A stretch of 64,000 bases of DNA from NCBI RefSeq assembly GCF_030295325.1, contig NZ_AP027059.1:744001-808000 (forward strand), in the 5' to 3' direction. Below, piece after piece: positions 2,230 through 58,199 of the stretch. This DNA comes from Haliovirga abyssi. GTDB lineage: Bacteria > Fusobacteriota > Fusobacteriia > Fusobacteriales > Haliovirgaceae. The notes beneath the pieces are model-generated. The model was not told the DNA's origin. It made no database searches and saw only the letters and a program-made list of their open reading frames with translations. Positions within the stretch are counted from its first letter, which is position 1, and each line of letters begins with the position of its first letter. The translations under genes were made by a program, and so were the position numbers.

Positions 2230-4422
2230 TTGAAAAAGAGAGTAATAATATTAATGTTATTCATTGTAATATTTTCTGAATTTAGTTTTTCACAAGGAGA
2301 AATATTTAATTCTAAAAATAAAAGTAAAAAGAATATAAATTTACTAAATTTTGAATACAAAGAAGATAATGGTGGAATTATAATAACAAAGTATATAGGA
2401 AAATCAAAAGAGATAAAAATACCGAGAGAAATAGATGATAAACCAGTGCTAAAGATAGGGAAACTAGCTTTTAATAATAAAAAAATAAGGAAAGTAGAAC
2501 TACCTAATACAATAATTGAGATAGGAGAAGAAGCATTTTCATATAATCAACTAAAAGAGATATTAATTCCAAACTCAGTAAAGAAAATAGGAGAATCAGC
2601 ATTTCTTGTTAATGAATTAAAAAGTTTAGTAATTCCAGATTCAGTACTAGAAATAAAGGCGGAAGCTTTTGGAAATAACAATTTAGAAAGAGTAAAACTT
2701 CCAAAGAGATTAAAAGTAATAGAACATAGTGTTTTTTACAACAATAGATTAGAAGAGGTATTAATTCCAAAAACAGTAACTAAAATAGGGTATGGTGCAT
2801 TTTTAGTTAACAAGTTAAAAGAGATATCTATACCAGATGGGGTAACAGAAATAGGAGCATATAGTTTTGGAAATAATAAATTAACAAGTGTATATATACC
2901 AGATACAGTAAAAAAAATGGGCAATGGTGTATTTGTGGAGAATAAATTAAAAAAAGTAAGAATATCAAATTCTTTATCAATAATAAGATGGAGAGCTTTT
3001 GCAGAAAATGAACTAACAAATGTAAAGATCCCAAATTCAGTAAAAGTGATAAGAGGAAGTGCTTTTAAAGAGAATAAATTAGAAGAGATAGTAATTCCAG
3101 ATTCAGTAGAAGAGATAAGAGGAAATGCATTTTCAAAAAATGAATTAAAAAAAGTAGTTTTATCAAAATCATTAAAAAAAATAGGATATAGAGTTTTTGG
3201 AGAAAATAAATTAACAAGTATATATATTCCTAGTTCAGTAGAAGATATAGGGAAAGAGGCTTTTTATAGAAATAAATTAATAAGACTAAAAATTCCAGAT
3301 ACAGTAAAAAAAATAGGAGAAGGTGCTTTTACAAGCAACAATTTAATTAGTGTAGAATTTCCAAAGTTTATAGAGAAAATAGGAAAAATGGCTTTTGAGA
3401 GAAATAAATTAACAAGATTAATAATTCCAAGTTCAGTAAAAGAGATAGGAATATTTGCATTTTCAAATAATAAATTAGAAAAAGTAGTTTTACCAAAATC
3501 ACTAAAAAAAATAGAAGGCAAAGTTTTTTCAGGAAATAATTTAACGAGTATATATATTCCAAGTTCAGTAAAAGAGATAGAAGGTGGTGCTTTTGAATAT
3601 AATAATTTAAAAAAAATAGTAATACCAGATTCAGTTGAAGAGATAGTATGGGAGGCATTTGCACATAATAATTTAAGTGAATTAAAAATAGGGAAGTCAG
3701 TAAAAAAAATAGGAGGAAGAGTATTTTCTCATAACAAACTAAGTAGAATAACAATTCCTAATACAGTAAAAGAGATAGGAGAAGAAGCATTTTCTCACAA
3801 CAAACTAAATAGAGTAACAATTCCTAATTCAGTAAAAAAAATAGGAGAAGGAGCATTTTCTTACAACAAACTAAGTAGAGTAACAATTCCTAATTCAATA
3901 AAAATAATTGATAAAGATGCATTTTTAGGGAATGATTTCAAAAAATTAGAAGACATTAAATTAGGGGAAGGGTATAAAAGTTATTGGGTTTTTAACAAGT
4001 CAAAAGGAGAATTAGATGGAATTATAGGATTACCAAGAAATTATGATTTAGTAATTCCTAAAAAAATAGATAATACTCCTGTAAAAAGCATAGGAGAAGA
4101 TGCTTTTGTATATTCGAAGTTAAAAAGTGTGATTATTCCAAATTCAGTAGAAAAAATAGGAGGAGGAGCTTTTATGGAAAATAACTTAACTAGCATAGTA
4201 ATTCCTAATGGTATAGAAAGAATAGAAAGTTATACTTTTCAAGATAATAGATTAAAAACTATAGTAATTCCAAAATCTGTGACATATATAAGGTTTGATG
4301 CTTTTAGTGAACATTTAAAAGCAACAATTTATGGAGAACCTGGCTCAGAAGCAGAAGAGTATGCAAAAGATATGGGAGTAGAATTTAAACCTATAAAAGA
4401 ATTAAAGAAAGAAAAAAAGTAA
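2230..4422 (+). CDS. BspA-like leucine-rich-repeat secreted protein, copy 1
   Basis: A 730-residue exported protein starting with TTG, 7 bases after AGGAGGT. An N-terminal signal peptide (about residues 1-22, ending FSFSQ) is followed by consecutive LRR_5-type repeats of about 23 residues, with consensus IPnSVkkIGegAFsyNkLk. The tail (IYGEPGSEAEEYA, then GVEFKPI) is the usual end of BspA-type repeat regions. BspA-like proteins are surface or secreted adhesion and binding proteins; the ligand here is unknown. No LPXTG or type IX sorting domain is visible. It is the first gene of a duplicated two-gene cassette and nearly identical to the gene at 5679, except across roughly 3300-3930. Confidence 0.88.
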   Translation: MKKRVIILMLFIVIFSEFSFSQGEIFNSKNKSKKNINLLNFEYKEDNGGIIITKYIGKSKEIKIPREIDDKPVLKIGKLAFNNKKIRKVELPNTIIEIGEEAFSYNQLKEILIPNSVKKIGESAFLVNELKSLVIPDSVLEIKAEAFGNNNLERVKLPKRLKVIEHSVFYNNRLEEVLIPKTVTKIGYGAFLVNKLKEISIPDGVTEIGAYSFGNNKLTSVYIPDTVKKMGNGVFVENKLKKVRISNSLSIIRWRAFAENELTNVKIPNSVKVIRGSAFKENKLEEIVIPDSVEEIRGNAFSKNELKKVVLSKSLKKIGYRVFGENKLTSIYIPSSVEDIGKEAFYRNKLIRLKIPDTVKKIGEGAFTSNNLISVEFPKFIEKIGKMAFERNKLTRLIIPSSVKEIGIFAFSNNKLEKVVLPKSLKKIEGKVFSGNNLTSIYIPSSVKEIEGGAFEYNNLKKIVIPDSVEEIVWEAFAHNNLSELKIGKSVKKIGGRVFSHNKLSRITIPNTVKEIGEEAFSHNKLNRVTIPNSVKKIGEGAFSYNKLSRVTIPNSIKIIDKDAFLGNDFKKLEDIKLGEGYKSYWVFNKSKGELDGIIGLPRNYDLVIPKKIDNTPVKSIGEDAFVYSKLKSVIIPNSVEKIGGGAFMENNLTSIVIPNGIERIESYTFQDNRLKTIVIPKSVTYIRFDAFSEHLKATIYGEPGSEAEEYAKDMGVEFKPIKELKKEKK

Positions 4423-4464
4423 ATGTAAATATATTTGAATAATAGAAATTAGGAGGTAATATTA

Positions 4465-5631
4465 TTGAAAAAGAGATTAATTTTATGGATGGTATTATTA
4501 ATTATGCTATCATTTAATTTATATTCACAGGTAGAAAAAATAGATCCAAAATTATATAATACAGTTTGGGAAAGAGAGTTTTTAAATTATACCAGTGATA
4601 AAATATCTTATTACTTATTAGATACAGGAGAAGTTGTAGTTTCTCAGTATTATAAGGTAGATAAAAATAATGAACATAGAGATTTGATTGACCTAAAAAA
4701 AGATATGTTGTTTTATTCAGGAAAAGAAATCAAAAAAGAATATTTTGAGAATAAATTAAGAAAACGAATAGTTATTCCTAAAACTACAGAAGAGTCTTAT
4801 AATGTTAGCTCAGGGGAAAAAGAGAAAGAATACTCTAAAATTGTATATGATAACTTAGGAAATAAATATAGATGGGTAAATGGTTTGGCAGTATATTATG
4901 ATAAAAGATACGAAGATAATAAAAAATATATAATTGATAAGATAGCAATTAATAGAAGTAGAATTAACGGAACATATTTTTCAGATTTAAAGAGGTTTTC
5001 GTCGGTTTTAGATAAATGTGTAATAGTACTTGAAAAATTAAATGAAAATAATAAAATATTGTGGCAAAAAGTTTATTTTTATAATTTGCCAATATGGAGA
5101 TCGTATTTTGATAGAGCAGAGATAGAATATGATTATTATTTTTATTATTTAAGACGAGGGTATATAACTCTATTAAATGCAGATAATATATTTTTGAATT
5201 TTCCTGGGACGAAAATGATATATAGAGTGGATAAAAATGGAAATCCAGTTACGCAAGATAAAAATGTGATAGTATTAGATTATAAAAATTATGTAAAATT
5301 TTATGAAAGTGAATATAATAGGTTAAATATTAAATATCTGATGGAAGATGAAGAAGGAGTTGATTTTAATCCGATTGATTACGAGGTGTTTGATTATGAT
5401 TATATAGGAGAGAGACTTTTGAAGAAGTATAAATTTAATTTAAATGATAAGAAAATTATAGACAGTATAAATGAACATCCTTCTGTGAAACATCTAATGA
5501 AAATTTATAAATTAATGGATGAGTATTATAAAAAAGAGGTGGGAATAGATAAAAATAATTTTTATCCAGTATTTTTAGAAAGAAGATGGAATCTAAGTGT
5601 TATAGAGACAGAAAAGTGGAGTGAAAAATAA
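4465..5631 (+). CDS. exported protein of unknown function, cassette gene copy 1
   Basis: A 388-residue product from TTG at 4465 with AGGAGGT just upstream. A signal peptide of about 22 residues (MKKRLILWMVLLIML, then a YSQ cleavage region) precedes a Tyr-, Lys- and Asn-rich body. I recognise no domain and see no lipobox or further membrane segment, so it is probably periplasmic or secreted. It lies 42 bases after the LRR gene with no terminator, so the two are likely cotranscribed; a joint role at the surface is inference. The paralogue at 7914 differs mainly around residues 165-215 and is cut short at the C-terminus. Confidence 0.75.
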   Translation: MKKRLILWMVLLIMLSFNLYSQVEKIDPKLYNTVWEREFLNYTSDKISYYLLDTGEVVVSQYYKVDKNNEHRDLIDLKKDMLFYSGKEIKKEYFENKLRKRIVIPKTTEESYNVSSGEKEKEYSKIVYDNLGNKYRWVNGLAVYYDKRYEDNKKYIIDKIAINRSRINGTYFSDLKRFSSVLDKCVIVLEKLNENNKILWQKVYFYNLPIWRSYFDRAEIEYDYYFYYLRRGYITLLNADNIFLNFPGTKMIYRVDKNGNPVTQDKNVIVLDYKNYVKFYESEYNRLNIKYLMEDEEGVDFNPIDYEVFDYDYIGERLLKKYKFNLNDKKIIDSINEHPSVKHLMKIYKLMDEYYKKEVGIDKNNFYPVFLERRWNLSVIETEKWSEK

Positions 5632-5678
5632 AATAATAGATAGTTGTAAAAATAAAATAAAATTAGGAGGTAATATTA

Positions 5679-7871
5679 TTGAAAAAGAGAGTAATAGTAT
5701 TAATGCTATTCATTGTAATATTTTCTGAATTTAGTTTTTCACAAGGAGAAATATTTAATTCTAAAAATAAAAGTAAAAAGAATATAAATTTACTAAACTT
5801 TGAATATAAAGAATATAATGGTGGAATTATAATAACAAAGTATATAGGAAAATCAAAAGAGATAAAAATACCGAGAGAAATAGATGATAAACCAGTGCTA
5901 AAGATAGGGAAACTAGCTTTTAATAATAAAAAAATAAGGAAAGTAGAACTACCTAATACAATAATTGAGATAGGAGAAGAAGCATTTTCATATAATCAAC
6001 TAAAAGAGATATTAATTCCAAACTCAGTAAAGAAAATAGGAGAATCAGCATTTCTTGTTAATGAATTAAAAAGTTTAGTAATTCCAGATTCAGTACTAGA
6101 AATAAAGGCGGAAGCTTTTGGAAATAACAATTTAGAAAGAGTAAAACTTCCAAAGAGATTAAAAGTAATAGAACATAGTGTTTTTTACAACAATAGATTA
6201 GAAGAGGTATCAATTCCAAAAACAGTAACTAAAATAGGGTATGGTGCATTTTTAGTTAACAAGTTAAAAGAGATATCTATACCAGATGGGGTAACTGAAA
6301 TAGGAGCATATAGTTTTGGAAATAATAAATTAACAAGTGTATATATACCAGATACAGTAAAAAAAATGGGCAATGGTGTATTTGTGGAGAATAAATTAAA
6401 AAAAGTAAGAATATCAAATTCTTTATCAATAATAAGATGGAGAGCTTTTGCAGAAAATGAACTAACAAATGTAAAGATCCCAAATTCAGTAAAAGTGATA
6501 AGAGGAAGTGCTTTTAAAGAGAATAAATTAGAAGAGATAGTAATTCCAGATTCAGTAGAAGAGATAAGAGGAAATGCATTTTCAAAAAATGAATTAAAAA
6601 AAGTAGTTTTATCAAAATCATTAAAAAAAATAGGATATAGAGTTTTTGGAGAAAATAAATTAACAAGTATATATATTCCTAGTTCAGTAGAAGATATAGG
6701 GAAAGAGGCTTTTTATAGAAATAAATTAATAAGACTAAAAATTCCAGATTCAGTAAAAAAAATAGGAGAAGGTGCTTTTCAAAGCAACAATTTAATTAGT
6801 GTAGCACTCCCAACTTCATTAGAAGAGATAGATAAAGATGCTTTCTATAGAAATAAATTAAAAAGATTAATAATTCCAAATTCAGTAAAAGAGATAGGAG
6901 AATTTGCATTTTCAAAGAATAAATTAGAAAAAGTAGTTTTACCAAAATCACTAAAAAAAATAGAAGGTAATGTTTTTTCAGGAAATAATTTAACGAGTAT
7001 ATACATCCCAAGTTCAGTAAAAGAGATAGGAGGTGGTGCTTTTGCATATAATAATTTAAAAAAAATAGTAATACCAGATTCAGTTGAAGGTATAGTAATA
7101 GAGGCATTTGCATATAATAATTTAAGCGAATTAAAAATAGGGGAGTCAGTAAAAAAAATAGGAGCAGGAGTCTTTTCTCATAACAAACTAAGTAGAATAA
7201 CAATTCCTAATACAGTAAAAGAGATAGGAGCATTTGCATTTTCTCACAACAAACTAAATAGAGTAACAATTCCTAATTCAGTAAAAAAAATAGGAGAAGG
7301 AGCATTTTCTTACAACAAACTAAGTAGAGTAATAATTCCTAATTCAGTAAAAAAAATAGGAGAAGGAGCATTTTCATTGAATGATTTCAAAAAATTAGAA
7401 GACATTAAATTAGGAGAAGGGTATAAAAGTTATTGGGTTTTTAACAAGTCAAAAGGAGAATTAGATGGAATTATAGGATTACCAAGAAATTATGATTTAG
7501 TAATCCCTAAAAAAATAGATAATACACCTGTAAGAAGCATAGGAGAAGATGCTTTTGGAGATTCGAAGTTAAAAAGTGTGATTATTCCAAATTCAGTAAA
7601 AGAAATAGGAGGAGGAGCTTTTATGGGAAATAACTTAACTAGCATAGTAATTCCTAATGGTATAGAAAGAATAGAAAGCTATACTTTTCAAGATAATAAA
7701 TTAAAAACTATAGTAATTCCAAAATCTGTGACATATATAAGAGTTGATGCTTTTAGTGAAGATTTAAAAGCAATAATTTATGGAGAACCTGGCTCACGAG
7801 CAGAAAATCAGGCAAAATATATGGGAGTGGAATTTAAACCTATAAAAGAATTAGAGAAGGAAAAAAAGTAA
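5679..7871 (+). CDS. BspA-like leucine-rich-repeat secreted protein, copy 2
   Basis: Second copy of the 730-residue LRR protein, with the same TTG start and signal peptide. Over residues 1 to about 357 I see only a handful of changes against copy 1 (for example Asp46 to Tyr and Leu178 to Ser). From there to about residue 565 many substitutions fall within the repeats while the repeat register is kept, for instance DAFYRNKLK against MAFERNKLT. The C-terminal section is again almost the same. The clustering suggests diversification of a binding face or repeat-by-repeat recombination. Function is inferred from the LRR_5 repeats only. Confidence 0.88.
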   Translation: MKKRVIVLMLFIVIFSEFSFSQGEIFNSKNKSKKNINLLNFEYKEYNGGIIITKYIGKSKEIKIPREIDDKPVLKIGKLAFNNKKIRKVELPNTIIEIGEEAFSYNQLKEILIPNSVKKIGESAFLVNELKSLVIPDSVLEIKAEAFGNNNLERVKLPKRLKVIEHSVFYNNRLEEVSIPKTVTKIGYGAFLVNKLKEISIPDGVTEIGAYSFGNNKLTSVYIPDTVKKMGNGVFVENKLKKVRISNSLSIIRWRAFAENELTNVKIPNSVKVIRGSAFKENKLEEIVIPDSVEEIRGNAFSKNELKKVVLSKSLKKIGYRVFGENKLTSIYIPSSVEDIGKEAFYRNKLIRLKIPDSVKKIGEGAFQSNNLISVALPTSLEEIDKDAFYRNKLKRLIIPNSVKEIGEFAFSKNKLEKVVLPKSLKKIEGNVFSGNNLTSIYIPSSVKEIGGGAFAYNNLKKIVIPDSVEGIVIEAFAYNNLSELKIGESVKKIGAGVFSHNKLSRITIPNTVKEIGAFAFSHNKLNRVTIPNSVKKIGEGAFSYNKLSRVIIPNSVKKIGEGAFSLNDFKKLEDIKLGEGYKSYWVFNKSKGELDGIIGLPRNYDLVIPKKIDNTPVRSIGEDAFGDSKLKSVIIPNSVKEIGGGAFMGNNLTSIVIPNGIERIESYTFQDNKLKTIVIPKSVTYIRVDAFSEDLKAIIYGEPGSRAENQAKYMGVEFKPIKELEKEKK

Positions 7872-27351: not shown

Positions 27352-27378
27352 TTAAAACAGTATTAATATTAATGATTA

Positions 27379-27488
27379 GACCCCAAAAAGGTAGTTTTCT
27401 AAAATCATACCACTACATATAGTTTCGTAAAAGCTTTCGAACACTATATGTAGTGGTATGAAGAAAACTAAATACCTTTTTGTGGGTC
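27379..27488. repeat. family C structured hairpin element, copy 1
   Basis: A near-complete 110-base palindrome. Outer stem: GACCC and AAAAAGGTA with TACCTTTTT and GGGTC. Next: GTTTTC (27394-27399) with GAAAAC (27463-27468), plus an unpaired TAAA on the 3' side. Then a 6/2-base internal loop, a perfect 17-bp stem (27406-27422 with 27444-27460), one bulged C, and a TTCG/CGAA cap around a 10-base loop. Copy 2 upstream of fliM keeps the bulges, cap and GTTTTC/GAAAAC but has different long stems. Confidence 0.8.
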
Positions 27489-27538
27489 AAACATATTAAT
27501 AAAAAAAGTTAAATATAGGCATACAAATGGAGGTAAAA

Positions 27539-57955: not shown

Positions 57956-58004
57956 AGAGTTAGATAGAAGATTAGAATGTAAAAAGATTTTTGAAATATT
58001 TAAA

Positions 58005-58186
58005 TAATATATATATAAATATGAAGAAAACTAAATACTGTTTTGAGAAACAAACAATAAATGATTTATTTCTCAAAAAGTAGTTTTCAAAAGTCACATT
58101 TATATATATAATTTCGTAGAGAGATTCGAACATTATATATATAAATATGAAGAAAACTAAACACTATTTTGAGAAACAAACAATAG
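58005..58186 (+). repeat. family C structured hairpin element, copy 2, with an extra upstream half
   Basis: The complete element is 58069-58145 and its 3' arm to 58176: outer TTTCTCAAAA (58069-58078) with TTTTGAGAAA (58167-58176), GTTTTC (58083-58088) with GAAAAC (58152-58157) plus the unpaired TAAA, a 6/2 internal loop, an 18-bp AT stem (58095-58112 with 58132-58149, one mismatch), bulged C, and a TTCG/CGAA cap. The 3' half also occurs once upstream (58005-58060) in direct orientation, so the 5' arm could pair with either copy. Confidence 0.8.
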
Positions 58187-58199
58187 GTGGTGATAAAAT

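Follow-up and report, generated by a model that had tools for sequence, protein, structure and literature searches.

The window, a 64,000-nucleotide stretch of the Haliovirga abyssi genome, contains two full copies of a hairpin-forming element that very probably represents a family of palindromic MITEs, non-autonomous relatives of IS1182/DUF772-type IS that were moved in trans and then reshaped through their hairpin. The initial annotation did not recognise the family and suggested that it may be new. Its terminal repeats of the IS1182 type and the 7-bp duplications of its targets make it recognisable as a MITE; the family itself is new, whereas the kind of element was already known. Like other bacterial MITEs (palindromic, non-autonomous IS derivatives), it is short, dispersed, near-identical between copies and non-coding, with terminal inverted repeats and target duplications. 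Unlike bacterial MITEs generally, it combines fixed asymmetric bulges with stems that have changed in pairs between subfamilies, and it has given rise to deletion derivatives of 33 bp and ~50 bp.

The hairpin architecture reported for the two copies is real, and both fold far better than shuffled sequences whichever strand is read (z = -12.3 and -15.0 for the two strands of copy 1; z = -7.3 and -10.0 for copy 2). Their common asymmetric parts were found as described, namely GTTTTC/GAAAAC, a single bulged C and a TTCG/CGAA cap over a 10-base loop, but the loop, taken to be fixed, varies. The TAAA bulge is likewise present, TAAA(A) being unpaired on both sides. The boundaries originally drawn (27379-27488 and 58069-58176) were too narrow, since the element is 119 bp long at both places (Table 1). 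It was also too strong to say that the stems differ completely: a comparison of the copies shows 16 differing pairs out of 45, and the inner stems have about half of their letters in common. The arms remain complementary in part, with ten of the 16 differing pairs compensated and one changed on a single side yet still pairing, while five are broken. With 16 of 45 pairs differing and ten of these compensated, the two copies are related versions of one element and not unrelated stems.

Table 1. Parts of the two full copies and their surroundings, in window coordinates.
Feature	Position	Strand	Remarks
Left target-site duplication ATATTAAT	27366..27373	.	8 bp here, 7 bp typical of the family; read directly
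Full MITE copy, 119 bp (focal copy; G000:C1:771374-771492)	27374..27492	+	Covariance model match 1-119, E 1.2e-25
Left terminal repeat GATTAGACCCCAAAAAGG	27374..27391	+	15/18 identical to right terminal repeat of the C. bowmanii IS
33-bp left unit (GATT...AAAATC)	27374..27406	+	Also present by itself at other genomic sites, between 7-bp repeats
53-bp inner hairpin, TTCG/CGAA cap and bulged C	27407..27459	+	Folds
33-bp right unit (GAAGAAAACTAAATACC...)	27460..27492	+	
Right terminal repeat, read inward: GTTTGACCCACAAAAAGG in focal copy, GATTGACCCACAAAAAGG in most copies	27475..27492	-	
Right target-site duplication ATATTAAT	27493..27500	.	Read directly
Right part of second AT-type copy	58003..58055	+	Just upstream of the full AT-type copy; alignment
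7-bp left flank AATAAAT of AT-type copy	58056..58062	.	
AT-stem type full MITE copy, 119 bp	58063..58181	+	Between fliL and fliM; model match E 3.5e-16
7-bp right flank AATAGGT	58182..58188	.	5/7 matching left flank

The covariance-model search that the annotation had proposed was carried out with a model built from ten copies. It returned 16 separate full-model matches in the genome itself, where two copies had been known; these are dispersed, gene-free and ~119 bp long. Searching the complete genome at the DNA level identified seven copies at 97-100% identity (the focal element and six others), together with several older or partial ones; the near-identical set marks a recent burst. Neither the covariance-model search across the order, covering 95 other genomes (76 of good quality), nor a DNA search of the order relatives found any copies. 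Haliovirga abyssi, whose genome comprises 2.43 Mb and 0.30 Mb and includes flagellar genes, forms its own family of Fusobacteriales in the taxonomy, and a single genome represents that family in the order here.

Within the window (58003-58188), 7 bp separate the partial and the full AT-type copies between fliL and fliM, and the two appear to have once lain head to tail on one common 7-bp target. The flank repeat is longer at the copy on the second replicon (G000:C2:294360-294478), where a TAATCATTTAGTGCTTT-like sequence stands on either side; it looks as though a portion of the element was copied once more, past the target duplication. At two loci (L055 and L061) another repeated hairpin (GTAGGGGC...GTGTGT...GCCCCTAC) adjoins fragments of the 119-bp MITE. 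An apparent array of copies at 2.05-2.06 Mb was rejected: three of its matches fall in the coding sequence of repeated genes, and another is a MITE of the GGTT type described below. The region (L050; G000:C1:2059077-2065022) carries three similar genes ~3 kb apart, whose common gene-start region matched the MITE by chance. Separately, positions 2230-7871 of the window encode a pair of BspA-type leucine-rich repeat proteins of 730 aa each; similar stretches lie between the two and after the pair, and the arrangement resembles a tandem duplication.

Target-site duplication of constant length was found across the family. Comparison of the two 7-bp flanks in each of 26 elements showed matches at 142 of 182 positions; random pairing of flanks gave a mean of 115 and a maximum of 132, and none of 20,000 shuffles reached 142. 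Flank lengths of 5, 6, 8 and 9 bp showed no excess matching in the same 26 elements. The repeats extend outward from GATT...AATC (e.g. ATACAAT, ATAATAT, ATTTTAT and AAATTAT), and the targets seen directly in the flanks resemble ATnnnAT. Among the old copies, three (L025, L026 and L055) have flanks without a match. The matching flanks are consistent with a transposition step in which the element would insert at AT-rich, ATnnnAT-like sites and 7 bp would be duplicated.

The ends of the element connect it to a transposase. A scan for similar ends identified a second MITE subfamily (the GGTT type; L048, L050 and L093) whose interior is unrelated but whose ends, GGTTAGACCACAAG...TTTTTGTGGTTGAACC, are of the same kind and are bordered by 7-bp flanks. 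One end of this sister subfamily is identical at 18 of 18 positions to the end (GGTTCAACCACAAAAAGG) of an IS remnant at C1:2084126. The transposase gene just inside that end is disrupted by a frameshift and by stop codons; it is the sole DUF772 match in the genome and scores above the DUF772 cut-off. The main MITE matches the IS ends at 14-15 of 18 positions; the common form of its right repeat is 15/18 identical both to the end of the remnant and to the left end of an IS from Clostridium bowmanii. That IS (L109; 1802 bp, 63% identity, ends GATTATCCCACAAAAA and GATTAGACCACAAAAA) is one of three clostridial IS of ~1.8 kb and 61-63% identity that were the closest relatives of the remnant found in a collection of 84,980 species genomes. 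It is flanked by a perfect 7-bp duplication, ATGTCAT; the flanks of the other two are imperfect (5/7 for L108, fewer for L110). The clostridial proteins carry Pfam DUF772 and DDE_Tnp_1_6 above cut-offs, and their best NCBIfam model is NF033551 (IS1182; E ~1e-40). Because their 135-142 bits fall below the equivalog cut-off of 270, we call the partner IS1182-type, a distant branch rather than a core member. Plasmids yielded distant haloarchaeal transposases only, and a literature search found no paper on MITEs of IS1182-type IS.

The likely mobiliser is a transposase of the IS1182/DUF772 type: the only DUF772 match in the genome is a broken gene whose IS end agrees at all 18 positions with an end of the sister MITE, and the C. 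bowmanii relative resembles the family both in its kind of ends and in its 7-bp duplication, which is perfect. Such a transposase would recognise, in trans, the ~18-bp ends (GATTAGACC.CAAAAA...). The MITE and the C. bowmanii IS are alike in their terminal repeats GATTAKMCCACAAAAA and 7-bp target duplication; they differ in that the MITE is gene-free, only 119 bp long and built around an inner hairpin that was not seen at the IS ends. No intact transposase of this type, and hence no intact autonomous partner, was found in the genome, a point against this reading; we infer that mobilisation took place in trans before the IS was broken. With the genome's own IS copy broken, the family is probably a fossil or nearly so.

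The arms of the repeated family do change together, as the annotation had maintained. Seventeen pairs carry two-sided changes, compared with 6.5 in shuffles, a count exceeding all 500 shuffles and every slid control. The further proposal that the folded form has been selected is not established: in one older copy (L025) six of eight changed pairs are broken, deletion derivatives lacking the hairpin persist, and template switching offers another source of paired changes. Switching between the arms produces such changes in palindromic DNA and has been proposed even for RNA genes (PMC8794818). During replication of the MITE, arm-to-arm template switching would generate paired stem changes; in the AT-type copy the ten compensated pairs lie in clusters (five adjacent versus 2.0 expected, P 0.015), as multi-base switching events would leave them. 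Counting against this account, the asymmetric TAAA bulges have been kept, though template switching alone would tend to erase them. The paired changes fit either template switching or selection on the source elements.

Selection on source elements would follow if the hairpin itself were needed for transposition, with single-stranded or cruciform DNA being read by the transposase. This is unlikely, although the asymmetric core GTAGTTTTC/GAAAACTAAA and the bulges are fixed across copies while the arms covary in several lineages, and IS1272, a related IS type placed in the IS1182 family whose ends form stem-loops, is reported to act on target stem-loops (PMC5678879). The sister GGTT-type MITE, with the same ends and duplication, has a different and weaker fold, and no such inner hairpin was seen in those end sequences of the full-length IS that were read. 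IS1272 is moreover reported to replace inverted repeats without target duplication (PMC5678879), unlike the 119-bp MITE, which duplicates 7 bp. It is somewhat more doubtful still that hairpin and fixed bulges together form an active part of a folded-DNA transposition substrate, such that only sources with paired arms spread and covariation is explained. Our guess is that the fixed GTAGTTTTC/GAAAACTAAA core is a putative transposase binding site. The annotation rightly left open the option of a protein-recognised DNA element.

The genome also contains six solo left copies of 33 bp, four of them with 7-bp flanks matching at 6-7 of 7 positions, and two copies that are 49-50 bp long. The full element has AATCAT at position 30, with a second occurrence at its right end that takes in the target's first AT, and CTAAA at positions 26 and 95; the unpaired TAAA stretches noted earlier are these CTAAA direct repeats. 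Deletion from repeat to repeat yields exactly 33 bp (AATCAT) and 50 bp (CTAAA), and the short copies found in the genome agree with these predicted products at 28-32 of 33 and 42-44 of 50 positions. The short copies accordingly fit a process in which the strong hairpin would promote small deletions between direct repeats of the arms, across the palindrome. It is improbable that the solo units are instead mobile themselves by very short ends (GATTAGA/GATTTTAGA): the 7-bp repeats around four of the six would suit such mobility, but deletion in place across the AATCAT pair leaves the same 33 bp between the same flanks without it, and the CTAAA pair explains the ~50-bp copies likewise.

It is very unlikely that the element is a structured RNA (a ribozyme or regulatory element) maintained for its fold, its stems covarying and its loops fixed. 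The 17 two-sided pairs and the very good folding of both strands are what such an RNA might offer, but no Rfam match was found in the window, and the copies, almost all intergenic, are oriented about six each way relative to the neighbouring genes, which are unrelated. Near-identical copies bear 7-bp target duplications, older copies have lost pairs, deleted copies persist, and the element is absent from the rest of the order. The apparently RNA-like matching changes need no RNA function, and we found no evidence here of an RNA role. A single-strand hairpin element of the REP/IS200-IS605 or integron attC kind is scarcely credible: the long imperfect hairpin with fixed bulges recalls one, but 7-bp target duplications in the flanks and terminal inverted repeats common with DDE-type IS contradict it, and with these found the attC, REP and ribozyme readings were all dropped.

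The palindromic MITE described here is a clean case of mobile palindromic DNA that passes counts of covariation although no evidence points to an RNA role, and as such it is a warning for automated RNA discovery. For the Haliovirga lineage, a bacterial family represented here by one genome, the gain is a MITE family with a probable transposase type, a 7-bp target duplication and deletion derivatives.
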